Source of the DNA: Chrysophaeum taylorii
Taxonomy: Eukaryota; Sar; Pelagophyceae; Pelagomonadales; Pelagomonadaceae
Direction of reading: 5' to 3'
Assembly: GCA_029834535.1 (NCBI GenBank)
Contig: JAQMWT010000524.1
Coordinates: 604,996 to 668,995 of the forward strand
DNA: 64,000 nucleotides
The first letter of the stretch is position 1. Every line of letters begins with the position of its first letter. The notes beneath the pieces were generated by a model. The model was not told where the DNA came from. It did not search any database and saw only the letters and a program-made list of their open reading frames with translations. The position numbers were made by a program, and so were the translations under genes. Shown piece after piece: positions 2 to 30,927 of this stretch.

Positions 2-1105
2 TACTCTCAGTCACTATTAGAATGGTGCAAACTTTACGAAACACGCTCGGGGAACAACTCGACTCGCGATCCTGAAGTTTTAAGGCTAGTTGATCCCAAT
101 GATGTTCGCCCGTTATTGGAGTCCTTGTTAACGATATACAATGAGACGAAATTCTCCTCTAACCGACGCTTGGACAAACCCGCATCATGGATTCCATATA
201 TCCCTGGTACTACCGCTACCAAGCCACCTAAAGTATTACTGATGGACACCATTCATCAGTCCCACGACTCTCTAAACAACGCTTATTCATTGTTAGCTAC
301 CGTCGCTGGACAGTCTGGCTTTAATGCTCGTAAGCTTCGTAACGCAAAAGATAAAGCGTCGACAATTTCTTCTCGAGACACGTCCTACTATCGCCCACCT
401 TCTAATTATAATGTCAAAGGCACCAGTTTTGATCGTCCTGTCTACTCACAATCCACTAATCGCAACTCACGCTCTAATATGTCACTAATGGATCGAGCTA
501 CTTATCAAGTAGACCGTCTTCGCCATCTGTTTAGTAAGTTACAGGAAGCAAATCCCAATCCTTCTACCGATTCTAAAATAGTACAAGAAGAAATGAAGAG
601 GTTACTAAGTACCCTCTGGACCACTGCTTCTCAAGCTTCTACACAGACCCTCGATACAGAAGAAGCCACCCAAGTTCACCTATACCTATCACGAGCCGAT
701 ACAATGTCCAACACCATCTCGAATCTTCTAGAGACAGATAAAGAGTCTCACATGGTAGAAGAAAAGGATCAAGTTGAAACTTCTGCTCCTGCAGCGTCCC
801 CCAGTGATGCGGAGCAGAGGGGGGCTGCTGAAACGGAAAAGATGTTTCACACTTTTCTATCTATCAAAGATGATGAAATCGATAATATTCCTCAACCATT
901 ACTGCAACACATTAATGCTAAAGCACAGAATGCTATCGTTCGTCGTCAAGCACGGGGAGCTTCTTTTCACTCTGAGCTTCCCAATAATCAACATAACGAA
1001 GAAAACGAGGATGATACAGATCCCCCTGTGTTGCTCCTGAAATTAAACAATGGTTTTACACTTGTCGTGGTACCTTCCGAACAAACGCAAAGTTTCATGA
1101 CTTAG
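2..1105 (+). pseudogene. copia-1 gag region (partial)
   Basis: The frame is open from the first bases of the window, so the start lies upstream. The product is hydrophilic and rich in Ser, Thr, Asn and Gln, with a charged acidic segment near the end (about residues 330-345), as expected for a structural Gag. I see no CCHC zinc knuckle. The frame ends at TAG 1103-1105, but the same frame continues directly into the protease region, so this stop either is a decay mutation or marks a gag-pol boundary. A 26 bp palindrome-flanked insert sits in frame at 798-823. Assignment as Gag rests on position ahead of the protease; sequence alone would not prove it. Confidence 0.6.
798..823. repeat. 26 bp hairpin-type insert in copia-1 gag (copy 1)
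   Basis: A 26 bp unit with a C5 left arm and a G5 right arm. It is identical base for base to 5970-5995. In both places it is read in the same frame and encodes the peptide PSDAEQRG. Confidence 0.7.
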
Positions 1106-1810
1106 TATGTGTTTGGTCAAAGTTCTACACATGCTTGTTATGCAACAATGCTTAAACTGTATAATGAATACAACTTACCATTAATGACTACACCTGGGTA
1201 TGCAGATACGCGCGCTTCTCAACATGTGGTTAACTTTAAACGTTACGCCGACCCACTGCATATCGTTAAACTGCCCGAATCCTTGTCACCCGCCATCCAG
1301 ACGGCTACAGACACCCAAAGTATCACACATGCAATGATAACAAGAAGAGGCATTCCTGCTCTTCCAAAGCATCCTAACGTTGGATATGTCAAGCTGGATG
1401 TTGCTCTTTTCCTACCCAAACAAAATCAACAAAACGAACCTGATTTGCACATCATCAGCATGACTCAATGGGGAGAAGACAAACTTGGTATACATCTCTA
1501 TGGGGTTGAGTTTAAAGGACAATCATCTATCCAGAGCAAGATTGACGACAACGTCAAGATTACTTTGTTTAGATTAAACAATTTGTTACCTTCTCTCCCA
1601 ATCTATTCGTTACAGCAAGCTAAAGCTCGAAAAATGGAACTACGCTCTTTACAGTTCCGATTGAGTGCTTTTAACGAACAACGTGAGATGCTTAAACTAT
1701 ATTCCAAACTTCTCGAACGTGTAATTTACGTCCCGTGGTTTAAAACCATTTTGGAGTCCATGCACTCACAGTTGCCTTATGTTCGCAGACATTTCTCACC
1801 TCCTGTATGA
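1106..1810 (+). pseudogene. copia-1 aspartic protease region
   Basis: Same reading frame as the upstream gag. The retropepsin active-site block reads D-T-R-A-S-Q-H-V-V at 1205-1231, where the family has D-T/S-G-A-S, so the glycine next to the catalytic Asp is replaced by Arg and the protease would be expected to be inactive. The following 190 residues form a spacer up to the methyltransferase motif I and include a charged helical stretch (about 1610-1720). The frame ends at TGA 1808-1810 and continues in phase afterwards. Protease identity is inferred from this motif plus its place between gag and the later pol domains. Confidence 0.6.
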
Positions 1811-4097
1811 CGCAAGTTTAATACACGCTTGCTCCTTACTGTAACAACCACTTCTAATTCACGAGTACCGACTGTAACTCTACTTTGCTCCGGGATGTCC
1901 ACTCCTGCATTCTTGGCTTGTGCTTCCAATGACTTGCGAATCAACATTAACGTTAAAGTTCTTAATGAAAGCGATGAAAATCTTGCGCATATGCTACGAA
2001 GACGGATTGGTAATTCCATCGAAGTGTTTCCGTCACTACCAAAGTTCCTCACCTATCTGCATCGAGCATCGGGTGCTGAACGTGCATGATACTACTCTGA
2101 CATTGTGGAATTGACTTCCCCATGTACTAATCGTAACATAATCAATGGGAGATCTATATCAACTTCCGAGCGAGATATGGACGACTCTTTATTTCCAAGT
2201 GCTCTAAGTGTACTTGAGCTTTTAAAGCCCCTTGTTCTTTTTATGGAGATGACACCACCACACTCTGCATCATATGAAGATCATATACGAGTTGCTAACC
2301 TGATCTTCTCCACAATGCATTACACGGTGGACATATGCGATCGCTTTCCATGTTACTTGTGTGGAGATTATCAAGCTAGAGAAAGATGGATCCTCGTTGC
2401 TCGCAAATATAATACCGGCCCACTAGATTTGCTTTCTTGGCCCAAAAAGCGAGTTACTTCCTTCCTGGACATTGCGGATCATGTTAACTCCATAAGTCGC
2501 AAGTTAATTGTCGACGAACCCTGGACACAGGTCTTCTCGGATGTACCATTCGTTTCCATGCCCAAAACTTACAGCAGCTTCAGTCGCACAGGATCCGTTC
2601 GCCTAACAGTTGCCGAGCTAGAGACAATAACCATGCTGTTCCTCCGTTTGCATTCATATAAAACTAACCCTGCGATCGCTAACCGTTGGTTGCGATGGAG
2701 GACGGCGCCTAACACGCTTGCTCCCTGCGGCGGCCCCGGCCGTCCCGGAGTGAGACGGTGCCTGCTCGCCTCCCGGGCTGGCCGGTTAGCACCCGGAAAG
2801 TCCGCGCTGGGATGGGGTTCGCTCGGTTGGGCAGAACGCGACGGACAGGTCGATTGTTCGTGGACCAACACGTTTGCGGCCTGCGACGCTCTTGCACGAC
2901 TTCGCACAAGACCGCGCGCAGTGGCGGCCCGTCATCAACGAGTCCTCGTCCCTCGCCTCAGCCCCAACTGCGTGATTTTCCTCTGTGATTCCGGATCGGC
3001 TCCTGCCTGTCCGGCCTGGCTCCCATGCTCGGGAGAGGTCTGAAGTTAGTTAGTTAGTTAGTTAGTTAAAACAATCGAACACCCAAGTCAAGACGAAGTG
3101 GGGGGCATTTCTAACTTTTGCCAAGGATTCTTAACGTATTCAAGAAAGCCCCTTACGTGTATGACTTCACCTATTGAACTTAAGGCCTTTGTTATCCTCT
3201 ATAACACTATGGAGCGCTTGTTCCCAAATTCCACTACATTACCTGTGTCTTTTCGTATTACAACTATCGAATCTAACCAACCATCTCACAGGTTATTTTT
3301 AAACAAATCCTCTACTTTCTCCATTATCTACATCACTGGCGGAAGACATACAGGTAGAGACATCACAGTTTCTAACTCCTCCTCTAAATACCAGGCACAC
3401 ATAAGTGCATTTGGGGAAACCTACATCTTGCAAACACATGAAACAGGAATTGATAAGACTGCTTCCCTCAATCCTGTTACCGGTTTTCTTTGGTTATGCC
3501 AAGCTTACCACCATCATAATGAAACCCAAGACACCTGTCGTCTCGTGCAAACACTGGTCTCCTACACTTCACCTGTGCTTCATGGCTCTTTCAATTTCCA
3601 TCCCTAGACAAATCATCTTGAGTTTATCGATAGAATCTTTGCTTTAAGTGACATGCATCTGTCTCAAAGCAGGTACCTTGGCTTCATTACATCTAGTGAC
3701 AGAAAGATGGGCGCCAAAGTTCATTCTATTCACACACCAACTCCGACTATTCTTGGATTTACGAACATGATCCTTTACGATCCACGGCTTGATCGCATTC
3801 GACACTACTCAACTCGTGAACTGGCACGCGCCAATAACTTCACAGCGTACCAAATTAATTTTCTTCTGTATTTGTCCCCGGACCTTTGCTGTGACATAAT
3901 TGCTAATGCTATTCTGGCTGGAACCTATCATGTAATTTATACACAGTTGTGTCAGCTTGTCTATGATTTGCGTAAATTAACGTTATCACCATCTTTCGAC
4001 CCTGATCATGCTTCTCTAACCAAAAACTATAGGACAACCTTTTTCACTAACATGTTTCCAGCTGACACATCCTTAATATTAAACCAGAGTTCTATCA
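1811..4097 (+). pseudogene. copia-1 C5-cytosine DNA methyltransferase domain, split by SINE
   Basis: Would transfer a methyl group from AdoMet to cytosine C5 in DNA. Motifs in order: motif I with TLLCSGMSTPAF at about 1878-1913 (AdoMet loop); motif IV DIVELTSPCTN at 2099-2131, with the catalytic Cys after Pro; motif VI LFMEMTPP at about 2237-2260, keeping the Glu but not the usual Asn-Val; motif VIII YQARERW at 2368-2388 (QxRxR); motif IX RHYSTRELARANNF at about 3798-3840; motif X-like IIANAILAG at 3898-3925 (GNAV position). The target-recognition region between VIII and IX is very long. SINE copy 1 (2665-3066) sits inside it; removal with one TAAAAC duplication restores the frame. In-frame stops at 2087 and 3605. 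Copia-2 has a related domain in the same place. Confidence 0.8.
2665..3066 (+). mobile_element. SINE-like retroposon copy 1 with (GTTA)n tail
   Basis: 402 bp, GC-rich, ending in a (GTTA)n tail, with a target duplication TAAAAC at 2659-2664 and 3067-3072. Deleting the element plus one duplication rejoins the methyltransferase frame exactly. The body is shared with 4098-4651 and 16164-16525. Weak A-box-like (about 2785) and B-box-like GGTTCGCTC (about 2818) sites suggest a pol III promoter. No coding capacity, so probably mobilised by a LINE-type enzyme. Confidence 0.8.
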
Positions 4098-4651
4098 ATA
4101 ACTAACTAACTAACTTCAGACCTCTCCCGAGCATGGGAGCCAGGCCGGACAGGCAGGAGCCGATCCGGAATCACAGAGGAAAATCACGCAGTTGGGGCTG
4201 AGGCGAGGGACGAGGACTCGTTGATGACGGACCGCCACTGCGCGCGGTCTTGTGCGAAGTCGTGCAAGAGCGTCGCAGGCCGCAAACGTGCTGGTCCACG
4301 AACAATCGACCTGTCTTTAAATGTCGACTGCTAAGAGGGGGGGGGTGTGTGTGGGGAGCATGAAGGATGTGGGTGGGTTTGTGGGGTATGAGGGATGTGC
4401 CTGACGGGCGGAGATAAGTACGCGGGACCTAGTCGGGGTCATCGCCGAGGCCTGCCTCGAATCGACCTGTCCGTCGCGTTCTGCCCAACCGAGCGAACCC
4501 CATCCCAGCGCGGACTTTCCGGGTGCTAACCGGCCAGCCCGGGAGGCGAGCAGGCACCGTCTCACTCCGGGACGGCCGGGGCCGCCGCAGGGAGCAAGCG
4601 TGTTAGGCGCCGTCCTCCATCGCAACCAACGGTTAACGATCGCAGGGTTAG
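4098..4651 (-). mobile_element. SINE-like retroposon copy 2, inverted, carrying a nested R2 repeat
   Basis: Same family as 2665-3066 but in opposite orientation. Target duplication GTTCTATCA (9 bp) at 4089-4097 and 4652-4660. The tail reads (TAAC)n on the left. Removal joins the end of methyltransferase motif X to the integrase zinc-finger region in frame. A 144 bp R2 repeat is inserted at 4316-4459. Confidence 0.8.
4316..4459 (+). mobile_element. R2 short dispersed repeat nested in SINE copy 2
   Basis: Begins with the family core TTTAAATGTCGACTGCTAAG followed by a G run and a TG-rich tract. Flanked by a 12 bp duplication AATCGACCTGTC (4304-4315 and 4460-4471). SINE copy 1 has the uninterrupted single copy of this target, giving a direct empty-site comparison. 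Other copies occur near 9500, 37838, 39150, 40270, 47690, 61770 and 62815. Confidence 0.75.
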
Positions 4652-4660
4652 GTTCTATCA

Positions 4661-6928
4661 CAGTGTTATACATTTCTAATGAAGCATTCCAATGTTGTGA
4701 CAACCTCTCCTCCAACCACGAACTTCCATTGTTTCATCTCGATTCAGTAGCCCATGTATTCATGTCTAACATCTCATCCGTAGATGAAACATCTACTTCC
4801 CAAACTAAAATGAAACACATTCCTCTCATAACTCCAAGACAGCTACATGAGAAACATGCTTCTTTTGACAGAAAAGTACATGCCAGTGGCACTCTAGCTT
4901 TTCGAGATGCCCAGAGACATGCCACAAATTTTCACAACATTCACCATTCTAGTGATTCTCAGGCTATAATAGCTGTTCAGGTCATTGCCAGCCCGGGACA
5001 TCATCCCTCAGATGTGCCCTACCGTAATTTTTTGTGTGGATTGTACCTTACATAAAGTACGTTTTCCTCACCCACATCATCTTACCAAGCAACCTTCATT
5101 TGAAAAAGTCTTTCAACCTGGTGAAGCCTGGGCATGTGATGGTGGTTACGTATCTGTCCTATCCGAATGGGGCTCTTTTCGCCACATTTTAGTTTTCAAA
5201 TGTTTCATCTCTAAATTTTTGTTGGTGTACTTTTGTCGTACTACTAATGCTAGTGAATTTTGTAATGCCCTCGAGTTTGTTCGCAATTTTTGCTCCACCT
5301 ATGTTCATGTACAATCAAAACAAATTTATTGTGACTCTTTTAAACCCTATTTATCTCAACACGTTACCACTCCCTTCCGTGTTGAACATGGCATTAATAT
5401 GTCTGCTTTCCCTCCCTACTTACATGTGTTTAATCACGAAGTAGAAGCCGCTGTTGGTCATATAGCAACTGCTGCGTGTACACGACTCCGGCATATGCTT
5501 AATGTATCCTATAAAGGTCACCGCCTAACAGATCCGGCACCACACTACCCGTGGGCTGTTATACATGCTATTCAATCGTACAATCTCCTCCCTAATGTCT
5601 CTCTCGAACGCATTTATAATAAAGTCCTAAGCCCCCAACAAGTTTTGTTGGACCAATGTAATGTTCCCCAACAAGACTACCTCAAACATTTTGGTTCTGT
5701 TTGTTATTTGCATCTAAAATCTAATAAATTTCACAAATATGAACCTCGATGTCGTCCCTACATCTACTTATGTGGCGCTAATGTTATTAACCCTTTAGTC
5801 ACACCCCATGTTAACCACTTAGCTGATGTTGTCCTCAATCCTGAGAACGGCCAAGTCCGTGTCTCTTCTAAACTTACCTTTCCTCATCTCACTTCTAATT
5901 CTCCTCCCGATTACGAACAACATCCCCCACCTGCACCTTCACCCGAAATACCCTTTTCTGTTCAACGCACCCCCAGTGATGCGGAGCAGAGGGGGAATGC
6001 TATGTCCAACGACATTGAACACGAGAGGGGGACTCCTTCACCCCTCGCACACGCTCCTACTCCCGTTCCCGCATGTGCTCCCGCTGCTTCTGCACCCACT
6101 GCTTCTGTCGCCACACCTCCGGCATCTGAAGTGTCATCCACCACTTTACCCATTTTACAATCCTATCGGTCCCTCTACTCCCAAGATGTCCTTCGTCTCA
6201 CCCGCGGTCCTAATCACCCTCAGCCTCGTCGCAAGACCAATCTCACGGCTGTTCTCACTCGTATTGCTTCACCAACCGTTGCCGCTTATAAACAAGCTGG
6301 TGGCACGCTTGCTGACTTCAAGTATGACCTCTCCAAGCAGTATATAACTTTCTGCGACCCCACCCTCCACTCCCTTCATATTGCTCACGGCATCCACTGG
6401 ATGGCTATGCCTCCAGAGGGGGAATTTACACAAACTCTTCATCATCATGTTCACCAAGCGCTATTCCAGTCTTCTTCTGGTATGTGTCATAGTAGCCTTA
6501 ACCATCCGTCGGCGGATGCCACTCTTGTTCATCTCCTCGACGACTTTAGCTTCTCGGACCTTCACCTTCCTCGCGCTCTTGTTCATCTAATTTCTGAACA
6601 CGCCCACGCTTTTCGAGTTCCTCCCGCTCAATATGCCTATGCTTTGCTCACGCCTCATTCCAGTTTGGATCATAATGATGCTTCCTATGGTGCCTCCGAG
6701 CCTCACCTCCCCGCCATTGAAGACTACATCACTGTGCAGTCTCATTACATTGATGCACACCTTGGAGATGACCCTCTACTAGTTATTCAACTTGTCGAAG
6801 ATCCAGATCCCGATCACACTAACGCTATTGTTGATTCTTACACGATCATCCACCTTACCCATGCTCAAGATCCCAGCACTGTTGGTCCGGACGAATGTAA
6901 AATTCAAAGCCAAGGATATCAAGATTGA
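4661..6928 (+). pseudogene. copia-1 integrase and linker
   Basis: The zinc-binding part is read in frame 1 (4661-5055); the catalytic core continues in frame 2, so one frame change lies near 4985-5055. The distal half of the HHCC finger is readable as CVDCTLHK near 5040. Core acidic residues: ACDGGY near 5135, YCDSF near 5330 and NHEVEAAVG near 5435, giving D-D-E. The core is followed by the usual copia C-terminal block (about 5690-5770) and a Pro/Ser-rich linker (5900-6250). A 26 bp hairpin-type insert sits in this linker at 5970-5995. The frame ends at 6928 while RT continues in frame 0 from about 6890, so another frameshift separates them. Confidence 0.8.
5970..5995. repeat. 26 bp hairpin-type insert in copia-1 linker (copy 2)
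   Basis: Identical in all 26 positions to 798-823, with the C5/G5 arms, and read in the same frame as PSDAEQRG. The surrounding sequences are unrelated. Confidence 0.7.
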
Positions 6929-7990
6929 TGAATATGAGTTGACCCGCCTCAAAGGTCTTTCTGAGGCTGACCGTAAGGCTTATATCTCCGCGATTTCTAA
7001 GGAGATTTTTGACATTGTCAAGTTTGGCTGCTTTAAACTCTCGTTGCCTATGGTCAACTCCAAGCCCATTGATACCCGACTGGTATTACGAATAAAAACC
7101 AATGCTGCCGGCGAATACATCAAACATAAAGCGAGACTGGTCCTACGAGGATTCTTAGCTTCCCTGGGCACCGACTTTTTAAACACATTTAGTCCAATGG
7201 CGCAGCTCACCGGTATCCGTTGTGTTCTGGCGCTCGCAGCCCACCTCCGACTTCCCGTCTACCACATAGACGCCCCTAATGCCTTTGTTCAAGCCCCGAT
7301 AGACTCTCATGTCTACGTTAAATTGCCACAAGGTATTCACCTACTTGATCCAGAAGATGCAAAATATCAAGGACGACGTCTCCCAAAACTACTTAAATCT
7401 CTTTGTGGATTACGACAGAGTGCTGCTCTTTGGAACTAAACCATAAATGGTTTCTTCGACACGCTAGGCTATAAACGCTTTCGAACAGATACACGCATCT
7501 ATGCTAAAGTCCAATCCGATGCTACGTTTTTACTTTGTACGCTATCAGTGGATGATGTTGTTATCATCTGTACATCGGAAAGTCTACGTCGTGAATTCCA
7601 ACAAGCCATGAAGAAGGAATACTCCGTTGAAAACTTTGAAGAAGTTCATACTCTCTTAGGTATGCGCATAACTCGCACTACCGATGGCTCCATCTCACTT
7701 GACTGCCAAGCTAAGATTGATGCATTGTTTGAAGAGTATCCCATCTTAACGCAGTTACGTCCCACATCAACTCCTATGTCCCCTTCAACTACATATAAAA
7801 CTGTAGAGCCATCTTCTGATATGAAAAGTTCATCCAACACATCTTCTCCACCTTACTTGGCAAGCTCACTTTTGTACAGTTGGCCTGTCGCCCTGATTTA
7901 TCACAAAGCCTCAGTCGCTGTTCCCAAGGAATGCATAATCCAGCGTATTTGCATGTCCAAGTATTACAGGAACTCTTCGCTATTTGCGCA
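6890..7990 (+). pseudogene. copia-1 reverse transcriptase
   Basis: Typical Ty1/copia RT: a start block with TRLVLRIK and HKARLVLRGF (7075-7155), the AP(N)AFVQAPI block near 7270, SLCGLRQSAALWN at 7400-7437, and the catalytic box as SVDDVVI at about 7546-7566. An in-frame TAA at 7437-7439 stands where elements of this type have Gln or Lys after the LWN block. The frame moves from 0 to 2 near 7830 (LLGKLTFVQLACRPD) and to 1 near 7970. The element cannot make an intact RT now. Confidence 0.88.
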
Positions 7991-8720
7991 AGCCTGAAAA
8001 ACGCAATCTTCGACTATGGTACTACTCCGGTTCTTCCGCTCTAATGGACCATCTTAGATTTCTCATCGGCAATCGTACCGATATGGCAACCATGCTGGAT
8101 TACACTAAAGAACAAGTGGATTCAGATAATTTTGATCCACTGGTCGCGTTCGTCGATGCTGATAATGCACCCTCTTATGAACAAGATCGCAAATCTACAA
8201 CTGGTTATGCCATCTTTTTATTTGGTTCCCTCATCACTTGGAAGTCCAAACTACAGCCTATCACAGCTACTTCCACGCATGAGAGTGAACTTATTGCCCT
8301 TAATATGTGTGCTGTTGACGTGGTCTGGTTACGTAACTGTTAACGGAAATGGCTTTTGCTATAAACCCGCAATACTATCTTCGCCAACCTCCAGGGAAAG
8401 ATTTGTTATTAGATTATGATGCATATGACAACCCTCTCCCATCCGACATGTCATTTATGCGCAACAGTTCTATACTTGGAGACTCTGCTTCTGCTATCCA
8501 TCTGTCAAATAATCCTGACAGTGCGACCAAAGCCAAAGCCATTAGCACACGCTGGTTTCGTATTCGTGACTATGTGCACCTAAGACGTATTCGCTTGCAC
8601 CATGTTTCTGGCACCAAAAATATCGCTGATGGATTCACTAAACCCTTTGGTGCTCCTCTTTTCACTAGATTTCGCACGTTACTTGGTTTACAACAACCCA
8701 TAGCCCAGCAAGATGCTTAA
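7984..8720 (+). pseudogene. copia-1 RNase H
   Basis: RNase HI of the copia type: FVDADNAPSYEQDRKSTTGY at about 8148-8207, followed by WKSKLQ and the TSTHESELIAL block (Glu of the active site) near 8270-8300. The frame is broken by TAA at 8341-8343 and resumes in another phase at 8349-8720 with GDSASAIHLSNN (catalytic Asp) and STRWFRIRDYV. A single indel near 8345 explains the break. Removes the RNA strand of the RNA/DNA hybrid during cDNA synthesis. Confidence 0.85.
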
Positions 8721-9456
8721 TCATCACCCTTCACTATGTCCGCAATGACATTAAACTAGCCCTCCTGGAAAACGGTAATTGTGGCTCGCTGAAAACATAA
8801 AAAAATATGAAGGTCTCCATAAAATGAATCCTGCCAAGACCAAGGATGCCGCGAGCCGAGGTTACTCAGTATTGAATCGTGGACGCGGTGGCATTTCTGC
8901 ACTGTCCTCACCGTTTAATGCTTTGAACCCAGGACTTGCCCCTACTGGTTCTCCCAATAGCCGTAAACACCAAACATATCTTTCTGTTGCTCAAGGAAAT
9001 AAATCCCCCCCAGTGACTCCTACGTCACGATCAAATCAACATAATCTTTAATATACTAACTCTCATGTTAAAAGCACAGAGTACTATCTGTTAAAGCACT
9101 GCAAATTCGATGTTATGGCGATGATGTCTGGGAGCGTTCTTTCGCTTGGTACTCAACCACCAATTTTTTTGCTACCGTCACCTAAGGATCCTCAATGTTG
9201 GTATCAGCCCAGCCAACAGCTGCTTACTGGCGCACAACAAAACAACTGCATTGATAATCTTCATTTCTTGAGTTCCCTCCTGTGTCTAAAGACCAAACGT
9301 GTGCGCAATGCGCCTAATGTACCGGTAAATGAGGGTATTCGATTGCATCGATACCCACCTATTAAAGGCGTTGTCAAAGTCCATGTAATGTGTACCAAAT
9401 GTTTTAATAAAACCGACGCACCGGGTACGCAGCTTGTTCTCGCTATCTTATCTTAA
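8721..9456 (+). other. region downstream of copia-1 RNase H with two small open frames
   Basis: Two frames in the same phase, 8779-9051 (Ser/Pro/Asn-rich) and 9115-9456, separated by stops. No family recognised. They could be the 3' untranslated part or an extra 3' gene of copia-1, possibly continued after the Helitron insertion by the frames at 10654-12018. A CxxC pair (MCTKCF) near 9390 is the only notable motif. Confidence 0.3.
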
Positions 9457-9616
9457 CTACTAATCGACAGATGTTTGTCTGTCTGTCTGTTTGTTTGTCT
9501 TTAAATGTCGACTGCTAAGAGGGGGGGGGTTGTTTGTCCCTCGATTTAGGGTAAGGATCAGGTAGGCGCGAGAGTAAGGACCAGGTAGGCGCGCGAGCCA
9601 GACAGTGACCAAGCCG

Positions 9617-10335: not shown

Positions 10336-10650
10336 TATAGGTTAACTTACTGGGACCAGGTGAACTTACTGGAACCAGGTGAACTTACGGAGGTTAGAGA
10401 TTGGGACTAGGTGAAATTAGTGACCAGGCGAACTTACTGAGACCAAGTGAACTTACTGGGGTTTTTAGAGTAAACTCAAAGGTTAGCGGCGTGTGCGGAT
10501 CAAAGCAGCTTAGATTGGCGGGGGTGACGGCGACGAGTTCAAAGGAAAGTGGATGTGAGCACGAGTGGGTTTACGCCGAATTTACTGGGGTTGGAGATTG
10601 GGACTAGGTGAACTTAACGGGGACAAGGTGAACTTACTGGCCTGCACTTG
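10336..10650 (+). repeat. degenerate short-repeat array (GAACTTACTGG type)
   Basis: Irregular copies of GAACTTACTGGGACCAGGT and shortened variants, mixed with non-repeat spacer. The same kind of array in inverse orientation occupies 39172-39535 and 61806-62092, each time at the 3' side of the helicase remnant. Confidence 0.75.
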
Positions 10651-12458: not shown

Positions 12459-12653
12459 TAGAGATAGAAAATCTGAACTAGGGTTAGTACCCCCTGTTCT
12501 AGGGTTAGTTCACTTAACTTTGCCACCTTTGGTTTAAGAAAACGCTGTGTTATTCACACCGGCTGTCCTCGATTAAGAGACAGATTCGAGGACAGACTAC
12601 CACTGTTCTCACACTCTGCTGAAGGGTGACCCAGTAATCATTACTGTTCTCTA
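12459..12653 (+). repeat. copia-2 5' LTR
   Basis: Termini are the inverted hexamers TAGAGA and TCTCTA rather than TG...CA. Contains a direct repeat CTAGGGTTAG near 12478 and 12500, and a stem-loop at 12563-12595. Confidence 0.92.
12563..12595 (+). promoter_or_regulatory. stem-loop in copia-2 LTR
   Basis: Arms CTGTCCTCGA and TCGAGGACAG are perfect complements around a 13 nt loop. The 3' LTR keeps the stem and extends it to 12 bp although neighbouring bases changed, hinting at selection on the structure. It could be an RNA element in R/U5. Confidence 0.55.
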
Positions 12654-15560: not shown

Positions 15561-15599
15561 CATCCCATCCCCGGCAAACATTCGCCACTGTGGTTAGCT

Positions 15600-21281: not shown

Positions 21282-21420
21282 TATGTTTTACTTCGCTTCT
21301 TAAAGGGCACTCCGAACGACGTCACTGGACTATTCATCCGACAGCCCCTCTATTACCCCCTTCATTCAGCATCTGATCGCCCGCTATCCTGAACTGCATC
21401 ACCTTCGTTCACCTATTATT

Positions 21421-22005
21421 TGTTTTACTGATGCAAGTTTTGCTGATCGTTCTGACCCTCGCTTACGATCCAATTCTGGTGCATGTATCTTCGTCTTTGG
21501 CAATCTCGTATTTTGGTCTAGCAAACGACAAACCCTTACTGCCAAAAGCACCATGGAAGCTGAACTCATCGCCGCCAGCGCAGCCGCTGATGAATGTCAC
21601 TGGTTCTACAAGCTTTTCTCATCTCACCCCTATCTGTTTTCATGTGACCAAGCTCACGCTACCCCATTGCTTCTTGATAACGCTAGCGCACTACATGTCG
21701 CCAATCACCCTAAAGTCAGAGCTCCTTCTCGTCATATCAATTTACGAGAATTTCGCATTCGTGACTACCAAGCTAATTCGATCATTAGACCTCTCTTATG
21801 TCCTACTCTCTACCAGGTCGCTGATCATGTTTCGAAGCTCCTTCAACGCAACTTATTTCACAAGTTCAAAAACGCCTACGGCGCTCATTCCACTTCATCC
21901 TCCCCACCATCCCATCAAGTCACTCTTTCAGCTGCTCTTCCACCGTATGACTCTGTCCAGAACACTCTCTACATTCTTGTCGATGGTAAGACGCTTCCAG
22001 CTTAG
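21421..22005 (+). pseudogene. copia-2 RNase H
   Basis: Frame 1. TDASFADRSDP at 21427-21459 has the first catalytic Asp; WSSKRQTLTAKSTMEAELIA near 21513-21573 has the catalytic Glu; LLDNASALHVANHP near 21670-21710 has the third acidic residue. The end block REFRIRDY matches the copia type. The connection from RT is broken between 21281 and about 21410. The frame ends at 22003-22005, 43 bp before the 3' LTR. Confidence 0.88.
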
Positions 22006-22047
22006 TTTGATCCAGATTTCGCTCCCCACGTTCAATCTGTGAGGGCG

Positions 22048-22242
22048 TAGAGATAGAAAATCTGAACTAGGGTTAGTAACCCCTGTTATAGGGTTAGTTC
22101 ACTTAACTTTGCCACCTTTGATTTAAGAAAACGCTGTGTTATTCACACCGGCTGTCCTCGAATAAGTGACAGATTCGAGGACAGACTACCACCGTTATCA
22201 CACTCTGCTGAAGGGCAACACAGTAGTAGTTACTGTTCTCTA
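22048..22242 (+). repeat. copia-2 3' LTR
   Basis: Same length as the 5' LTR (195 bp), TAGAGA...TCTCTA ends, followed by the target duplication CCTAC. Confidence 0.92.
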
Positions 22243-22330
22243 CCTACCTTGTGTAGTAGCATGTGACAAGCGGAATGGTCTGTACGCGCCTAAGACTACC
22301 ATGTACCCGGAGAGGGTCAAATCTCTCCAG

Positions 22331-22618
22331 ATACGGAATCGTGGTACTATACCGAACATTGAAGAGATAACAGAACTCTTCCATCAACTTATTGGCGAAC
22401 TCTTTCCCGTTGTCGGTACGAATCCTCTGAGGTAGAAAACCTTTGAGTAATATATTCGCGACAAAAGACTCGAGGATTGACTCAGCAGTCTTATGGTAGT
22501 ACGTCAAGAATCAAGAAATGAGAAAGTGGATCAAAAAAGAAGATCAGATATTATGTCTCGGGACCAGCACTGGGCAAAGGTCCGAGCAAATCCATACAAA
22601 GGACGGCGCAATCACCAT
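22331..22618 (-). pseudogene. gypsy-B integrase fragment (downstream piece)
   Basis: Minus-strand integrase core: VLCMDLLGPLPSAGPET near 22590-22540 (first Asp), ESILESFVANILLKG near 22480-22440, then RIRTDNGKEFANKL at about 22424-22385 (second Asp kept). The protein similarity stops near 22331. It continues in phase with 31614-32560 once gypsy-A is removed with one ACCAT duplication (22614-22618 and 31614-31618). Contains a stop near 22540 and a frame change near 22500. Confidence 0.8.
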
Positions 22619-22933
22619 TGAGGCGGGAACTCCCGCCTCCTAAGGCTTACCCCTCTTCTAGGGCCCCCCTTATAAGGGGCACCCTACTCCGTTCTGATGA
22701 TGTCAGTTTTCTCTATGACATAATCTCCCTTGATTTCTCTGATTCAAGTGTTCTTAATCATAAAGCAACAGCCGATCCTCAAGTTGTGAGGACCAGGCAC
22801 GGAAGTTGTTTGTGGTTGTGTGGCGGGGGAACGGCCATCCTCGTCCAGTGACTCCACCAAGGGCACGGACGCGAGCGGCGAGCCAGGATTCGAAGGCACG
22901 CCAGGTAGCCCCTAAAATTCTCCTTACGCCACA
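22619..22933 (+). repeat. gypsy-A 5' LTR
   Basis: 315 bp. Starts with a small inverted repeat (GGCGGGA...TCCCGCC), contains TTATAAGGGG near 22670 as a possible TATA region, and ends CGCCACA. Confidence 0.9.
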
Positions 22934-23041
22934 GGTGGTGGAGGATATGACATTTCGTGTGCCGACATTTTTAGTGACGAGGCGATTGCCGATATTCTAA
23001 GCGATGGAGTGGATGATAGGCCGAGTGAAACGGCCGAGAAA

Positions 23042-24382
23042 ATGAATACGAAAGCGGAAGAGGTGAAGAACCTTATAACGCATGAACGGCCTTTGGAGCT
23101 CTGTGAAAGCCCTGGCGTATTACTCACGAACGAAGAGTTCAAAGATTTTCAGCCTGCATATGATGATGGCTATGTGATAAAGAAAGATCCCGAACATATT
23201 ATGAGGGATGAGTATAGCTGCCGCCCGGAATCGAATTTGGATGGGACGATCAGCATGGATAATAGGAAGATGAGCGGACCGACGATATGGATACGAGCTC
23301 ACTGTTTCCTGAGGAAGAAACCGCCAGAGCGGAAAGAAGTGCGATTCCGACCCCGAGGCATGGATTTATTCGCCAACGGAGATTTAATTTACGTTTGGTC
23401 GGAGTTTTGGCAAGAAGACGACGCATGTGTCGATGTTTCGATAGACGAGACGATTGAGACAGTTCGGATAGGCTTGGGAGTACCAGTCGCCTACAGTGAC
23501 GATCCAGAGGTACTAGGACCTGCCGAACTGACGCCAGAGAGAGAGAAAGATAACAAGAGCCCCAGTCGAAGTTCGCGCCGGCACAGACGACGCCGATCGC
23601 GCGACGACGAACACGACGGAGACCGACACCAATATAATTTGGTTTTTTTGAGCGCAACGCTCGCGTTTACGACCCCTTGCGGTCAACAGTTACCATTAGG
23701 AGTGATGGTGTACCCGAACACGGACACCCGCACCGACGACGCAGCCGACGCCCTTGCCGCGGCCGCATTCGAAGATCTTGCTCGCCCGCCGATGGACGAG
23801 CCACCTAACGACGTGCTGACCAATCGTCGGTCTTTGGCACAGATTTATGAGCAGATGTCGAGCGATGAACTCGAAGATTCGAGCGATGAACTCGAAGCTC
23901 CACGGTACTGGGAAGGCGATTCAGATTCGGAAGATGAAGAAGCTACACCTTGTGAACCAGTGTCCGCGATAACGTTATTTGACGAGTCGTCCACGGACGA
24001 CCCGCCGTTTATTTTTGACGAGGAAGCCCTCGATGCCATCGGCTTATCTTCGGACCCTCCAGAGACTACCTTTGGCGACCAAACTGGCTGTGAGCCAGAC
24101 ATGGATTTCTGCAGTGATAGCTTGTGCGCTCATTCGCCTGACGAGACGATGACCACCGCGAGTGATGCAGACGACGATCTTACGATAGAGTTGACGTCGG
24201 GGACGACTCCATCTTTTCCTGCGGACCCTCCCGAAACGGTTTCGAGGGATCGAGCCACGGACACGCCGCCGGAAGAAAGGATAGATTTAAGAAGAAGATT
24301 AGCAGCGTTCTCAAGTGGGACGAAGACGAGCCGACGTGGAACCTGCAGGATTGGTGGACGAGAACTCGGAACTTCTTGCTAA
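23042..24382 (+). CDS. gypsy-A gag-like first frame
   Basis: Open in frame 2 from just inside the LTR edge (22916); the first in-frame ATG is at 23042. The first 170 residues contain a compact part with WIRAHCFLRKK and LIYVWSEFW; then a basic Arg/Ser/His tract (about 23560-23630) that could bind RNA, then a long acidic Ser/Asp/Glu region to the stop at 24380-24382. No CCHC knuckle. The pol frame (frame 1) is open well upstream of 24376 and overlaps this end by about 140 bp, so expression of pol would need a -1 shift in 24240-24380; the codons TTT AAG AAG near 24286 are one possible place. Gag identity is inferred from position. Confidence 0.6.
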   Translation: MNTKAEEVKNLITHERPLELCESPGVLLTNEEFKDFQPAYDDGYVIKKDPEHIMRDEYSCRPESNLDGTISMDNRKMSGPTIWIRAHCFLRKKPPERKEVRFRPRGMDLFANGDLIYVWSEFWQEDDACVDVSIDETIETVRIGLGVPVAYSDDPEVLGPAELTPEREKDNKSPSRSSRRHRRRRSRDDEHDGDRHQYNLVFLSATLAFTTPCGQQLPLGVMVYPNTDTRTDDAADALAAAAFEDLARPPMDEPPNDVLTNRRSLAQIYEQMSSDELEDSSDELEAPRYWEGDSDSEDEEATPCEPVSAITLFDESSTDDPPFIFDEEALDAIGLSSDPPETTFGDQTGCEPDMDFCSDSLCAHSPDETMTTASDADDDLTIELTSGTTPSFPADPPETVSRDRATDTPPEERIDLRRRLAAFSSGTKTSRRGTCRIGGRELGTSC

Positions 24383-27300
24383 AGAAGCCACCAGAACAAC
24401 CGCTCAGCTACGGACTCGAAGCCGCAGCTGACACGGAACCGATCGCCGACGATGGTGATGATCAACCGATGACGAATAAATTTACGGATGCATTCTGGAA
24501 AGACGAAATGAATGATTTATGGGAGGGGTCCTTTGCTTCCACGAACTACGAAGACCAGGATCCCCTACCAGCGCTGATTCCTTCCGAGATTGTCTTGGAG
24601 GAAGAGCGGAAGCCGCCAGATAAAGAGGCTGCCGCGAGCGTTACGTCGATGACGCCAACAACAGATGATACGAAAGCTCAAGCCGCGGTATCGATGCCCA
24701 ACCCCGGAGATGAGCGAGTCAGAGCCCGATGTGTTCATACTTCGTTGACGCCGCGAGACGGCAAGACGATCGAAGATGATTTGGTTACCCTCAGTTGTTT
24801 AGATACGGGTACTCTTACGTTTATAGCCTGTCACATCGACAGGAATCGTGACGGACCGAAATTCTCGACGACCATCGGTGTCGATGGAATGGCAGATGTT
24901 TCTTATATTTGCCGAGAAATGGTCAGAAAGTTGGCCAAAGATCAGTTGATTTTCGATGAAGGCGAACTTCCGATTAAGCGCAAGCTGTACGTATCAGGGT
25001 TGAATATGACGACGATCTTCCGTTGGATAGCGATTCGGGCCGCCCTCGCCGACAACATCGCCGCCCCCATTGTCGCTATTGTGACCGATACGAACTATCT
25101 GTTCCTGTTGGGAGGGCGCGATATACGAGTTTTAGGAGCCGTCGTGGACTACCCCCACGATCGGATCTGTTTTTATCGAACCCAAGTCGTCTACGGGCGC
25201 AAGAAGATTAAAATCAAGGATGAACGAGTCGATGCACCCATCGTAACCTTTCGATCTATTTACGACCGAGACCCGATAACCGCACCGATTTACAATCATC
25301 AACACGATGCCTTCCGGAAGAGTCTCGACCTAGTCAAGACTCGAGTTTACGCTCGCTTGAGCACGATTAAAGATCTCCGCAGCCCGCCGCCGGAAAGAAA
25401 GGTAGCCTTGGCTACGCGGGGACATGCGACAACCAAATTCTCCCCAGCTCCGGGAGAAGACGCGCGAGAAGTAGTGGCATACGCTGCGCGCACGCTTCAA
25501 ATCGGACCCGGTCGAACTTACAATCTACCGGTTATTCTGTCGAAACCTATGGAAATGGGACAGGTTTTCGTCGCTTCGTTTGCTGAAAACGAGCAGTTGG
25601 GAGTTGTCGAAGGAATGTGTTCTTCTTGCGAAGAGCACGACAGGTCCGCTGCTCGGGTTGCGGTTTCTGTCGCGGAAGAAGTGCCGACGGTCGTCACTCA
25701 AGGCGAGGTTCTCGCGATTGGCGATATTATTCGGTACGAAGATGAGTTGAACGTCTCTACGATCAACGAACTTACGAAAGAATGTGAAGAAGGATACGAC
25801 AAGGGGAACCTTTCTTTCACCGTTTCCGTCGCTAGTCATTTGACGCATTGCGACGCTTCTCCCCCGCCGATGTTGCTGAGCACGGCGCAGAAGGACGCTA
25901 CGACCGCCATTGCGGACAAGTCCTCCCTCAAACGACCCGAAAGCGACGACGATTTTGCTCAAAGGTCGGAAGAAGATGAAAAGAAGTACCGCGAGATCAC
26001 CGAAACAGAGATCCGCCGCCGATACGGAAAGGTTCAATGGCTTCCAATCACTTATCGCAAGGTGGTGATGCTGTTCAGTGGAGCCGGAGGCAGTACTATA
26101 GGTCTCCAACGAGCCAACGAAATGTGTGGGACATCGTTTCGAGTCGTGCTAGCACTCGATGCGTCGGATACCGCCAACCAGATACACCACAAGAACCTTT
26201 CGAATATTCCTGTGGTGCAGCACACACTTTGTGGTCGCTATGTTACAACCTTACGGTTGATCGAATCTTATTTACCCTACGCGGAATGGTCGTCGTCGAT
26301 GTGTATCGCGTCGCCACCCTGCGTACACTCCGCTCTGTGCAACTTGACCTCCAGAGATGTTGGGACAGGAGTCACCGCTACCCACTGGACTATGAAATTA
26401 TGCAAGAGGGCTGGTTTCTTCATGTGGTTGATAGAGCAGGAGGCCTCGATTATTTCTTACGTTGCACGTTTGCACCCTTACGTGTACGTCGTCAATTTTT
26501 ACGACATAACTCCCAGTTTGATGAGCTGTCGCGTGCGATTGTTGGTTTCCAGCCATCCGCTCCATTTGCGCGCAGTCCCAAAGACTTGCAAGAATATGCA
26601 GCAAGAGTTCGCCTCAGCACTTGGCTACGCCGACGAACGACATTTACTTCAGATGAACAATTTAGGATCATCACGAGCCGCGACAGACGCAGCTTATACC
26701 GTTACGCGTGTCCCGCTTCGCGTAGGACCGCACCGTTCCGATTACAGATCTTTGAATCTGAGAATGACGTCGGAGTTGCTGACAATGCCCCTTGATTTCG
26801 ATTGGGCCGGCTTCTCCAGGACGACCTCATTGAAACACTTGGCGTCCGTCGTGCCACCAGACACGATAGCCTTATTAGTGCTCGATCTGCACAACTCTGT
26901 GACCAGGGAATTTCACCTGAGCGGCGAAGCTTTGCCGTCAGCGTTGAGTCCTGCAGACCGACCGTTTGATTATTATTTGCAAGTTGATGAAACCACCCTT
27001 CGTCACGTACAAGTTCCGCTGTTAAACACGCGCACACGTGTCGTAAGATGGGTGTCGACTGATGATCTCCAAGATCGCACCAAATGGAAACCTCCAGAGG
27101 TACCGTTGATTCCGCCTGCAACAGATGAGCCGGGGACGTCTCATGCTTCTTCTGCTGCCCCCCCCCGACAACCAAATTTAGACGTTCCGCCAGATCCTGA
27201 GCGAGATCGGGAACCGAAGATTAAGAGCGAGCCGAGTGTTCGTGTCAAAGGCGAGAGGATCAACAAAAGCCACCCGGAAGTGAAACGAAAATACGAGAAA

Positions 27301-30300
27301 AAGTTCGATGTGCCATGGAAAGATGCGCCGCGCGATGCCGAGGGTGCACCACTGCCGCAGACTCCTGAGCATGTCAAGGACAACGAAGCAATGAAAGTTC
27401 AAATTCCTACGAAGGAAGAAGTTGACAAGGTTGTGCAGGAGCTGGGAATTCCTGACAATCCGCACTTAGATGACGAGGCGAAACTGATGCTCCGTCACTG
27501 TGTGCAATATTTTTGGGCCTTCTTCGACCCGATTATGAGACCTGTGGACTCACCTCCTGTGTCTCTACGATTCAAAGACGCGAATCCGCGACTGATTAAG
27601 ATGACGCCCTACAGATTGACGCCTGCGAAGCTCGATTGTCTCCGCAAGCAGATCAGCGAGTGGTGCCGGGATGGAGTCATTCGTCCGGCCAACTCACCTT
27701 GGGGTTTTCCTGTGTTGATGCTTCCGAAGAAAGGAGCTGAGATTGGAACGTCAAACGCGTTCCGTGCTGCAGTTGACTTACGTCAGCTCAACGATCAATT
27801 GGTCAATGACAGTTGGCCGAACATTCGACAAGATGATGCTTTAGCTTTTCTCGCCACGCGACGATGGCGGACATGCATTGATATTAGATGGGGATACCAC
27901 AACCTTCGTCTGGATCCGGCAGCGCAAGACGCTGTCACGATGGTTAGCCCACTTGGCGCTCATAGTTTCTTGCGATTACCTCTAGGTGTGAAGACGGCCG
28001 GAGCTCTTTTCCGCAAGCAAATGGCGAGCGACCTTTCGAAATGGATGTATCAAGACTTGGTTGCGTTTGTTGACGATATTATGATGGGATCCGACGATCT
28101 TCATCGACATTTACAAGTTTTGATCGAAGTGATGTGTCATTTGGCACAGAGAGGGTACAGCGGTCGAACCGCGAAGTTCCACCTTCTCAGGGATGATATA
28201 GAATTTCTGGGACACATTTCTACCCCAGAAGGCTTGAAGCCGAATCCGAAGACGCTGGAAGCACTGCAGAAGATGCCGATTCCAGGTACTTTGCCGAATA
28301 CTTCCCCGAAGACCCAGATACGCTCTTTCATCGGCATGAGTTACTGCCGGCGATATGTGAAGGGCTACTCGAAGATCGTGGAACCGCTGAGACGATTATG
28401 CCTTGAAGGTGTAAAGTTCGAGTGGACGCCCGAGTGTCAGAAAGCTTGGGATACGATTATTGAAGCTTTGGTTGATTCCCGTGGAGTCTACCACCCCGAT
28501 TATGATCTGCCTTTTCAGATCCGATCCGATGCTTCCAAGGATGGACTTGGAGCGTATCTCTTCCAGATTGTCGAAGTCAAGGACGATGCCGGAAGAGTGA
28601 CTCGAGAAGAACGAGTGATTGAATATTGGAGCCGAGCTGTGCCGAAGGAGATGCGCAAATATGAGCCCCGTCGGTTAGAGCTGCTGGCAGTTATACTTTC
28701 TCTAGAGCACTTTCGAGCCTACATCGAAGGGCACCGTACTGTTTTGGAGACCGATCACCGAAATTTGACGTTTTTACGTAAGGCGACGCACTCGTCTGGG
28801 CAGCTTGCTCGTTGGGCGATGCGCCTCGCCAACTTTGACCCTGAACTTGGTTACCAGCCGGGAAAGTCACCGGGAATGAGTATCCCTGACTGTCTCTCCC
28901 GCAGTCCGATAGATCATGTCATCGAGACTGACGAGTTTGGAGAACCTTTGAATCACGCTTATTTGGTGTTCCAAGAGCTTCCCCGACCTGTTGACGACCG
29001 AGGAATTCCCGCTTCCGGCTGCCACTTCGTAATGTCGTTTGTTACGACCGAACTGCCGGAAGACGAGGAAGAAGATCCTGAAAAGGATCCGATGAAACTG
29101 GCTACGTCTCACGCCACGAGACAACGTCGGAAGAACCGTGCGCGCGATGAGCCGCAGATCTTCAAGGTCGCAGCCGCTTACAAAGCTTATATCGATAAGA
29201 TACCCGATAATATGACGCTCGCTGAGATCGCACGTGAGCAAGAATCTGATGCTACTTGCGAGGATATTCGCTACCGAATGGCCTAAGGTCAGACGCCGCG
29301 ACGTTCCCGAGCGAACGAACGATTCGAAGTCGTTAAAGACGTTCTTTACCGCATTTCTGCTGATTTGCACCCGATGATTGTTGCACCTGCTACGTTGGGC
29401 AAGCGCATTATTCGACTCTACCATGACACTCCGGTTAACGGTGGTCATATGGGGCGTCACAGTACCGTCCAGACTATCCAAGAACGATTTTGGTGGCCTC
29501 ACATGTCGAACGAAGTTGGAGTCTTCATTGCTGAATGTTTAGTTTGCCAGAAAGCTCGTACGCCTGAGCCGAAACGAGCTGGACTCTTGCAGCAGCCCGT
29601 CTACGATGGCGATGGTGCTGTTCTTTGCATGGATTTATTTTGACCCTTGCCCAGCGCTGGTCCCGAGACGTATCTTCTAGTATTTTTTGATCCGTTCTCG
29701 CATTGTTTGATTCTGGATGTTTTGAACGATAAGACTGCTGAGTCTGTCCTCGAGTCTTTTGTCATTAACATTCTTCTCAAGGGCTACTTGCCCCAGATGA
29801 TTCGTACCGCCAACGGTAAAGAGTTCGTGAACAAGTTGATGCGCGAGTTTTGCCATCTCTTTAACACACGATACCAAACTACGATTCCTTATCATGCCCA
29901 GCCGAACCCGGCTGAGCGTGTAAACCGATTTATCAAGGCCTTCCTCCGTGCTTGCCTTCAGGGCCGGAACATCGCGGATTGGCCTGACTTTGCTCATTAT
30001 ATTGCGTTTTGTTATAACCGCAAGTTTATTCCAGGCACGCAGATTTCTACCTTTATGCTGCGCCTGAACCGTCAGCCGATGCTGCCGACTGACTACACGC
30101 TTATGGACTTTGATACGCGATTATTGCCGAAGACTCGCTCTGATGCAGTCGCCGAAACTCGTGAACGATTGAAGTACTATACGAAGATCGTCCGCGAGGC
30201 TCGTGATAAAGCTTTGAAGAAACAACGATTGGCTTACAATGCTGATCATGCTGATGTTGAATACAAGGAAGGATCGCACGTTTTGCTCTAAATTCCTTTC

Positions 30301-30927
30301 CTTCAGAATAAACTTCGACCGGAATGGCGAGGACCGTTTATTATCAAGGAACGCCTTTCCCCGGTCACCTATAGGATTGAGTCTCTCGACTCTCCGCCCG
30401 AAGAACGACGTGTTCATGTAAGTCAGATCACGCCTGTGATGGTACCTCCGATCGTTGATCAAGCCATCCGCAAACCCGAAGAAACCTTCCGTGATGATTA
30501 TCAGCACGGTAAGTTTGTTGTTTTCCGGATTCCCGACCGGAAGCGCTCTGATTGGCGCAAGAAGATTTATGTTGCTGAAGTTTATGAGCCTTACGATTAC
30601 CAAAATGATCGTGTTGCTCTACATTTCTATTCCGATTTGGGTCCGAACGATGATGTGGCTTATTTCAAGCCGACCTCTCACCTTTCGCACCGCAAGCTCA
30701 AGCCCGAGTTCAAGGACGTTGAAGGTCGAAGTTTCACCGACAAGTCCAGAATTTCTTCCAACACAACTCCTTGTGTCACGGATTTCGCTCCGCACGAGAT
30801 TGATGTGTTGATCCCCAAATTTACTTTACTTACTTGGCCGAGTTCCCGAACCGGTGTGGCAGTAACGCCCATTCCCCCACTTGCCTGCCTGCCACATGAC
30901 TTACCCTGGTTGTTGCCCTGGTACTGA
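24376..30927 (+). pseudogene. gypsy-A pol polyprotein (protease, methyltransferase, RT, RNase H, integrase)
   Basis: One frame across 6.5 kb with three stops: TAA 29284-29286 (gypsy-B has Gln here), TGA 29641-29643 (gypsy-B has Gly) and TAA 30289-30291. Retropepsin-like region near residue 169 (GVDGMADVSY, altered active site) and LGGRDIRVLGAVVDY near residue 246. Methyltransferase at residues 557-840. RT with MTPYRLTPAK, RAAVDLRQLND and AFVDDIM (residue 1231). RNase H with RSDASKDGLGAYL and LETDHRNLTF. Integrase with the HHCC finger 29425-29560, CMDLF at 29626-29640, then RTANGKEF at 29803-29826, where the second catalytic Asp is Ala, and AERVNRF. The C-terminal GPF module is at about 30330. 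The protein ends 374 bp before the 3' LTR. Confidence 0.9.
26038..26910 (+). other. C5-cytosine DNA methyltransferase domain within gypsy-A pol
   Basis: Motif I VVMLFSGAGGSTIGLQ at 26062-26109 (AdoMet loop). Motif II/III area VVLALDASD near 26140. Motif IV CIASPPCVHSAL near 26302-26337, with the catalytic Cys after Pro-Pro. Motif VI FMWLIEQEA at about 26419-26445, with the Glu kept and Asn replaced. Motif VIII SCRVRLLVSSHP at 26524-26559. Motif IX NLRMTSELLTMPLDF near 26755-26800. Motif X-like LASVVPPDTIALL at about 26839-26877. It is in frame with the protease before it and RT after it, with no stop. It is about 280 residues, so the target-recognition region is short, unlike copia-1 and copia-2. 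Predicted role: methylation of element cDNA or host DNA; specificity cannot be read from sequence. Confidence 0.85.

Follow-up and report, generated by a model that had tools for sequence, protein, structure and literature searches.

Why would a retrotransposon carry a cytosine methyltransferase? Cytosine methylation usually harms retrotransposons, and carrying the enzyme reverses that. The question is raised by a 64,000-nucleotide stretch of DNA (the window) from Chrysophaeum taylorii, a pelagophyte of the Ochrophyta; the source assembly comprises 70.8 Mb in 697 contigs. It is established at the level of sequence that three long terminal repeat (LTR) elements of C. taylorii, from two superfamilies, carry a predicted C5-cytosine-methyltransferase (DNMT) domain inside Pol. 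The domain lies upstream of the integrase (IN) in copia-1 and copia-2, and upstream of the reverse transcriptase (RT) in gypsy-A. That all three elements encode such a domain in pol had been proposed by the original prediction, made from the letters of the window alone. This is borne out by the Pfam profile PF00145 for gypsy-A and copia-2, and more weakly by PHROG and PADLOC for copia-1.

Organization of the three elements

The order of domains is gag, protease, DNMT, IN, RT and RNase H in the two copia elements, and protease, DNMT, RT, RNase H and IN in gypsy-A. The elements and their parts are as follows.

2-8650 (+): copia-1, Ty1/copia element whose 5' end is cut off by the window edge; 3' boundary approximate, LTR there not delimited
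1199-1228 (+): copia-1 protease-like active-site stretch, DTRAS, by direct reading; no Pfam match
1808-1810 (+): in-frame TGA conserved in copia-1, with C as the next base, separating the gag-protease and DNMT-IN-RT frames; putative stop-bypass site
1874-3928 (+): copia-1 DNMT, interrupted by TGA 2087-2089 and by inserted repeats at about 2661-3060; motifs I 1874-1918, IV 2108-2134, VI 2237-2263, VIII 2363-2404, IX 3800-3844, X 3887-3928
12459-22242 (+): copia-2, complete Ty1/copia insertion (LTRs, target-site duplication, Pfam)
12459-12653 and 22048-22242 (+): copia-2 LTRs, 195 bp, 93.3% identical, ends TAGAGA...TCTCTA
12454-12458 and 22243-22247: copia-2 target duplication CCTAC, perfect 5 bp
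15821-17739 (+): copia-2 DNMT, interrupted at about 16.07-16.5 kb by an inserted repeat; motifs I 15821-15856, IV 16040-16060, VI 16535-16558, VIII 16661-16696, IX 17606-17635, X 17704-17739
22619-31613 (+): gypsy-A, complete Ty3/gypsy insertion (LTRs, target-site duplication; RVT_1, RNase H, rve and SH3 in order)
About 22619-22933 and about 31300-31613 (+): gypsy-A LTRs, about 95% identical; outer start by eye
22614-22618 and 31614-31618: gypsy-A target duplication ACCAT, perfect 5 bp
24166-29286 (+): gypsy-A pol open reading frame (ORF), 1706 aa, protease-like (by eye), DNMT, RT and RNase H (Pfam)
26062-26865 (+): gypsy-A DNMT, uninterrupted (PF00145, PADLOC, hhalign); motifs I 26062-26106, IV 26308-26331, VI 26425-26445, VIII 26518-26553, IX 26752-26790, X 26830-26865
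29644-30927 (+): gypsy-A, two ORFs encoding the integrase core and an SH3-like C-terminal part (rve, Integrase_p58_C)

Gag and protease were assigned by eye in all three elements; the Pfam scan, which covered 28 ORFs of the window, gave no match for either. The prediction that the DNMT lies downstream of a protease-like motif holds in this reading. The copia-1 stretch DTRAS corresponds to the usual form DTGAS, and the protease motif of gypsy-A is weak. The integrase core was detected in all three elements, each time under the curated Pfam cut-off. No tyrosine recombinase or LINE endonuclease was matched by Pfam in the 28 ORFs; an integrase core and LTRs are present instead.

In copia-1, the gag-protease frame (2-1810, by eye) is followed by rve and SH3_retrovirus within 4973-6928, both under the curated cut-off, by RVT_2 at 6783-7439 (E 7.9e-24) and 7440-7997 (E 6.7e-9), and by an RNase H-like reading until about 8.6 kb (by eye). 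In copia-2, rve (17524-19398) was found under the cut-off (E 0.0028), and RVT_2 (18996-21281) with E 3.3e-40. The gypsy-A integrase gave E 2.2e-7 for rve (31.5 bits; cut-off 32.6) and E 6.8e-7 for Integrase_p58_C. The RTs of copia-1 and copia-2 are 41% identical in one stretch of 182 residues and 22% in another of 104; the two elements therefore belong to different copia lineages. Parts of one short interspersed repeat occur in both, as inverted copies in copia-1 (2661-3060 and 4099-4654) and within the copia-2 DNMT (16162-16506).

Identity of the DNMT domains

Motifs I, IV, VI, VIII, IX and X were found in order and at the places originally predicted in all three regions. The profile check that accompanied the prediction divided the elements: copies of gypsy-A and copia-2 scored over the curated PF00145 cut-off of 22 bits, and copia-1 stayed under it.

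For gypsy-A, PF00145 matched 12/12 family rows, and all 12 copies with visible scores were above the cut-off (window 25.0 bits, L078 27.0, ten others 24.0-27.7). Within the full 1706-aa ORF the score was 18.9 bits, under the cut-off. The domain was also matched by PADLOC MTase_II (1.7e-8), by DNMT2 in a profile-profile comparison (hhalign, E 3e-10), by plasmid cytosine methyltransferases (0.007) and, at 0.045, by NCBIfam TIGR00675; the phage search gave no match. Profile support covers approximately motifs I-IV, and the later motifs were assigned by eye. The PDB profile search with gypsy-A returned nothing significant (GGA1 best at 0.2, DNMT2 at 1.6 and 1.8), and a single-sequence AlphaFold model had a pLDDT of 32.5, too low for use.

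For copia-2, PF00145 matched 12/12 family rows (best 2.4e-12), and 11/11 copies whose scores were seen lay above the cut-off (27.7-47.4 bits). The broken DNMT pieces of the window's own copy had no Pfam match; they align at 64-95% (blastp) with relatives that do match PF00145. TIGR00675 gave 7.5e-11 and 1.9e-6, under its own cut-off. Phage cytosine methyltransferases matched copia-2 down to E 4e-5, and the plasmid search gave no match. The PADLOC and PHROG DNA-methyltransferase models match both copia-2 and gypsy-A. In copia-2 the profile support reaches up to motif VIII, and later motifs were assigned by eye. For copia-2 the PDB profile search brought up two cytosine methyltransferases and nothing else, the best being M.HhaI at a non-significant E of 0.3.

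Chance or artefact was considered for the copia-2 and gypsy-A domains and rejected by the PF00145 matches over the cut-off. Searches with these two queries found no relatives in a set of 5.8 billion proteins, and viral contigs contained no relatives of the element DNMTs.

The copia-1 domain was confirmed more weakly, and here it had to be asked whether the region is an unrelated Pol spacer with a chance fit to the motifs. The window piece reached 12 bits with PF00145 (E 0.14, within 2090-3043). No match was obtained in five other copies or in the window piece 1811-2086, and only 1/8 family rows was listed (E 0.19). NCBIfam matched 0/5 copia-1 proteins, the PDB profile search listed leptin alone (E 0.054, not significant), and the hhalign scores of copia-1 were reached by column-shuffled controls in 2/200 cases (against DNMT2) and 9/200 (against copia-2). 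The copia-1 profile also failed to separate DNMT2 proteins from decoys. Against a spacer, all motifs are present in the right order, and a DNA methyltransferase is the best PHROG match in 4/7 copia-1 type proteins and the sole match in three of these. The four match PHROG_116 with E 1.8e-4 (L072), 0.0047 (L071), 0.025 and 0.34, those of L072 and L071 covering motifs IV to IX; of the remainder, L073 matched only an unknown family, and two had no match at all. PADLOC recognized a cytosine methylase or type II methyltransferase in 3/7 ("DNA cytosine methylase", E 0.0014).

Composition shuffles point the same way. None of 2400 reached the best of eight copia-1 rows against a profile of bacterial and phage dcm enzymes, and 1/2400 reached the median; against a DNMT2 profile, 4/2400 reached the best row and 25/2400 the median, the eight rows not being independent in either case. 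The dcm profile consists of nine enzymes, partly picked for matching copia-2 or gypsy-A, which makes the same test circular for those two elements. Profile support for copia-1 spans motifs IV-IX and IX-X, and the remainder was read by eye. Chance or artefact is unlikely as the source of the putative copia-1 domain, and an unrelated spacer seems highly improbable.

A conserved UGA in front of the copia-1 DNMT

The TGA-C at 1808-1810 is kept in 10/10 copia-1 copies compared (the window and L069-L077). Because this in-frame UGA is so kept, the DNMT-IN-RT frame is likely to be expressed by stop-codon bypass, of which readthrough would be the simplest form. The upstream frame of L075 is open throughout the stretch shown, down to the TGA, and the extra TAG of the window copy (1103-1105) is a Gln codon in L075. 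Among the other eight copies, seven have upstream stops or shifts; the upstream frame of L076 is open but chimeric. L074 has two additional bases after the TGA. An ATG overlapping the TGA starts a different frame (by eye).

The chimera was observed at L076:2-1474 (+), where the DNMT of a further lineage, copia-1b, is joined without a frame shift to the copia-1 sequence that precedes the TGA. The chimera perhaps arose by template switching or from a nested insertion.

A comparable stop occurs in Tca2 of Candida albicans, a copia-type element. A UGA between its upstream and downstream ORFs must be bypassed (PMC2194720), as would be the case in copia-1. The UGA of Tca2 divides gag from pol, whereas that of copia-1 follows the protease-like part and directly precedes the DNMT. 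The sequence flanking the Tca2 UGA failed by itself to direct readthrough in yeast (PMC2194720).

Copy number, selection and catalytic residues

A genome-wide count, suggested along with the original prediction, showed that the domains are abundant. All counts are lower bounds drawn from the best-scoring candidates only and include the window's own copy. The gypsy-A DNMT has at least 124 matches, out of 1023 candidates; in 24 of these matches the open frame measures 1500 aa or more, and 21 of the 24 are without a stop inside the match. For copia-2 at least 134 matches were found, corresponding to 125 loci once merged. There are at least 150 matches for copia-1 (of 885 candidates) and at least 153 (of 1017) for copia-1b, which is about 42% identical to copia-1.

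Among the best 150 copia RTs, at least 76 are preceded on their own strand, at no more than 7.5 kb, by a listed DNMT match, a lower bound since the DNMT matches were the best listed ones and part of the copia-2 list was excluded; on the opposite strand, a listed match lies at this distance or less in 4/150. The genome contains 57 PF00145 matches, 49 of them no more than 2 kb from a copia-2 match of the same strand. The remaining eight include a host DNMT2-like gene (L001) and a second gene (L002), presumably DNMT5-like by our reading of its sequence. The DNMT2-like gene (L001:1498-2577, +) overlaps an opposite-strand frame with a light-harvesting (FCP-type) protein, read by eye.

The ratio of nonsynonymous to synonymous differences (pN/pS) was low in all three families. 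The mean pairwise value in the DNMT was 0.16 for gypsy (14 copies, 91 pairs), 0.22 for copia-2 (8 copies, 28 pairs) and 0.15 for copia-1 (6 copies, 15 pairs), with 0.23 in the downstream copia-1 segment towards IN; the copies were chosen for open frames, and synonymous sites approach saturation in some of the pairs. Catalytic residues were counted in 32 gypsy, 36 copia-2 and 9 copia-1 loci, mostly the best-scoring ones with chosen divergent ones, excluding stretches with more than 5 differences. The motif IV Cys is kept in 32/32 gypsy, 35/35 copia-2 and 8/8 copia-1 stretches; the motif VI Glu in 32/32, 34/34 and 9/9; and the motif VIII Arg in 32/32, 29/30 and 9/9. The motif I Gly is kept in 34/36 copia-2 loci.

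These values bear on the possibility that the domain is catalytically dead and serves only as a nucleic-acid-binding or structural part of Pol. Such a loss is hinted at by unusual motif forms: the usual ENV is EMT in copia-1 and EQE in gypsy-A, and the usual FxGxGG is AIIAGG in copia-2. The near-invariance of Cys, Glu and Arg in motifs IV, VI and VIII, together with pN/pS of 0.15-0.22, argues against it, and a dead enzyme appears distinctly unlikely.

The elements had been described as decayed. In the window, the DNMTs of copia-1 and copia-2 are broken (in copia-1 by the conserved TGA 1808-1810, the second TGA 2087-2089 and the inserted repeats). The families are far from dead, with many open frames and conserved catalytic residues.

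Origin of the domains

The profile comparisons suggest separate DNMT sources for copia and gypsy. The copia-2 DNMT scored 48-68 bits with the dcm profile and -0.5 to 13 with the DNMT2 profile; gypsy-A scored 36-40 bits with DNMT2 and 22-30 with dcm. Part of this contrast is explained by the choice of references, with 33 rows for DNMT2 and 9 for dcm, two of the latter picked for matching gypsy-A. The copia-1 and copia-2 profiles barely set DNMT2 proteins apart from decoys, and DNMT2 is therefore a poor yardstick for the copias. In hhalign, gypsy-A was aligned no better than shuffles with either copia-2 (21/200 reached the score) or copia-1 (62/200).

The original prediction held that the domains reflect repeated capture or exchange between superfamilies. 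They are too divergent to decide this. In the tree, copia-1 and copia-2 pair with support of 88/82, with a long-branch warning. Neither a single clade of all three DNMTs (approximately unbiased (AU) test, p 0.397) nor a clade of gypsy with DNMT2 (AU p 0.196) was rejected.

The affinity of gypsy-A to DNMT2, with its hhalign match, raises the question of whether the enzyme acts on RNA, as DNMT2 does, with the packaged genomic RNA or the primer tRNA as substrate. The trait would then bear on reverse transcription or on the stability of the RNA, not on the epigenome. CpG decay that is scarcely visible, as described below, would agree with this. The scores are reversed in copia-2, however, the profiles compared are of unequal size, and the joint clade with DNMT2 is neither shown nor rejected. 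Moreover, the CFT motif, present in 33/33 DNMT2 rows, occurs in 0/12 gypsy-A rows and is absent in L078 and L079 as well. Action on RNA is a minor candidate, on the whole unlikely.

A wider picture can be put forward tentatively, at somewhat less than even confidence. The DNMT might be a standard fourth Pol enzyme in both superfamilies. Its fixation in copia-1, copia-1b and copia-2 might predate the divergence of their RTs, which now share about 41% identity or less. The gypsy capture might have been separate and from another DNMT class, and the output of copia-1 might be set by UGA bypass. If so, element-borne methylation would be a long-established, normal feature of the copia life cycle in this pelagophyte lineage and no rare accident.

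A possible function and the CpG evidence

Because the enzyme would be a Pol product adjoining RT and IN, its likeliest role is to methylate the cDNA that the element itself has just made; we give this about an even chance. The DNMT would be synthesized within Pol, in copia-1 only once the UGA stop is bypassed, and would be released by the protease. It is assumed to be packaged with RT and IN in the particle, where it would methylate cytosines of the new cDNA, and the insertion would arrive pre-marked. A pre-marked insertion might stay silent and be tolerated by the host, or might look no different from the host's own methylated DNA. In favour of this reading are the profile matches, the kept catalytic residues, the low pN/pS, the copy numbers, the DNMT matches upstream of copia RTs, and the enclosure of the copia-2 and gypsy-A DNMTs by complete LTRs and target-site duplications. 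There is also a precedent: in yeast, SymbioDIRS DNMT3 domains tested in isolation carry out de novo CG methylation (PMC5890265).

Several observations weigh against it. C/T differences at CpG were only 1.13 times those at other C sites (27 gypsy copies). By neighbouring bases, the C/T rate ranged from 0.021 (TCA) to 0.075 (ACT), with ACT and CCT at the top and the four CpG contexts at 0.039-0.057. The LTR pairs showed 6:7 (copia-2) and 4:12 (gypsy-A) transitions to transversions, with one CpG-type transition overall. CpG observed/expected was 0.90 in copia-1, 1.04 in copia-2, 1.23 in gypsy-A and 1.26 in the host-like part of the window. For the Gypsy and LINE DNMTs, the yeast test of De Mendoza et al. 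2018 is reported as inconclusive (PMC5890265).

No clear sign of a CpG-methylation footprint was found in the gypsy copies, the LTR pairs or CpG observed/expected. That the elements mark their cDNA or the host genome, as originally suggested, is a hypothesis; a weak effect in the copias is possible. TpG observed/expected was 1.20 in copia-1, 1.10 in copia-2, 1.06 in gypsy-A and 0.96 in the host-like part, and the copia CpG and TpG values would fit a weak CpG loss from methylation. Low CpG decay would also fit weak or non-CpG methylation, methylation of cDNA only, or action on RNA. As a separate observation, the transversion excess in the LTR pairs (12459-31613) contrasts with a transition/transversion ratio of 2.02 among gypsy copies.

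The enzyme might instead be a weapon against the host or rival elements, with host chromatin or other elements methylated in trans and the host's silencing marks diluted or misdirected as a result. Several lineages at very high copy number within one genome would suit such a weapon, as would the dinoflagellate precedent, in which many retrotransposon DNMTs occur alongside near-uniform CG methylation (PMC5890265). The host-like part of the window, at 1.26, does not show the CpG depletion that would be in keeping with it, and we consider a weapon unlikely.

Other features of the window

A second gypsy fragment (31593-32978, -) contains RNase H and an integrase zinc-binding domain, and part of it is 78% complementary to gypsy-A. 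A 3280-aa open frame (51728-61570, -) contains a 60-nt repeat array from about 56.5 kb on. A dispersed repeat is present in three copies, at 9451-10616 (+), 39179-40327 (-) and 61882-62759 (-), about 84-96% alike over the matched parts.

Comparison with known systems

The precedent named in the original prediction, in dinoflagellates and a charophyte, is real: retrotransposons of the LINE, DIRS and Gypsy classes were reported to carry DNMTs by De Mendoza et al. 2018 (PMC5890265). The printed cases found come from a single dinoflagellate genus and a single charophyte. In Symbiodinium, the most abundant class is Copia, which is described as being without a DNMT domain (PMC5890265). A 2025 paper mentions in passing DNMT3 in "LTR Copia and DIRS families" (PMC12344493), crediting the 2018 paper, which says Gypsy. 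Apart from this phrase, titles and abstracts of the open-licence literature yielded no recognizable further case of a retrotransposon DNMT in a copia element or in a stramenopile. In a term search of the main text of the C. taylorii genome paper (PMC10366177), the words retrotransposon, transposable and copia were absent.

KnitGypsy-Dnmt3 of Klebsormidium nitens, as presented in PMC5890265, resembles gypsy-A in having the DNMT inside a Gypsy Pol ORF, in intronless copies, with purifying selection on the domain (Ka/Ks <0.2 there). The domain of KnitGypsy is a Dnmt3. Its repeats are DIRS-like, whereas gypsy-A has ordinary LTRs, a 5-bp target-site duplication and a stramenopile host. DIRS elements with a Dam-like methyltransferase are also retrotransposons bearing such an enzyme, yet theirs is an N6-adenine enzyme and structurally unrelated (as outlined in PMC5890265). 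SymbioDIRS-Dnmt3 and SymbioLINE-Dnmt of Symbiodinium share with the C. taylorii elements hundreds of DNMT-bearing copies per algal genome and retained catalytic residues; they are DIRS and LINE elements (PMC5890265), and those of C. taylorii are copia and gypsy. Beyond the printed cases found, the trait is seen here in a stramenopile host and in copia elements, with one gypsy lineage and three of copia in the same genome. The copy numbers allow dating and selection tests in a host with a small genome (70.8 Mb).

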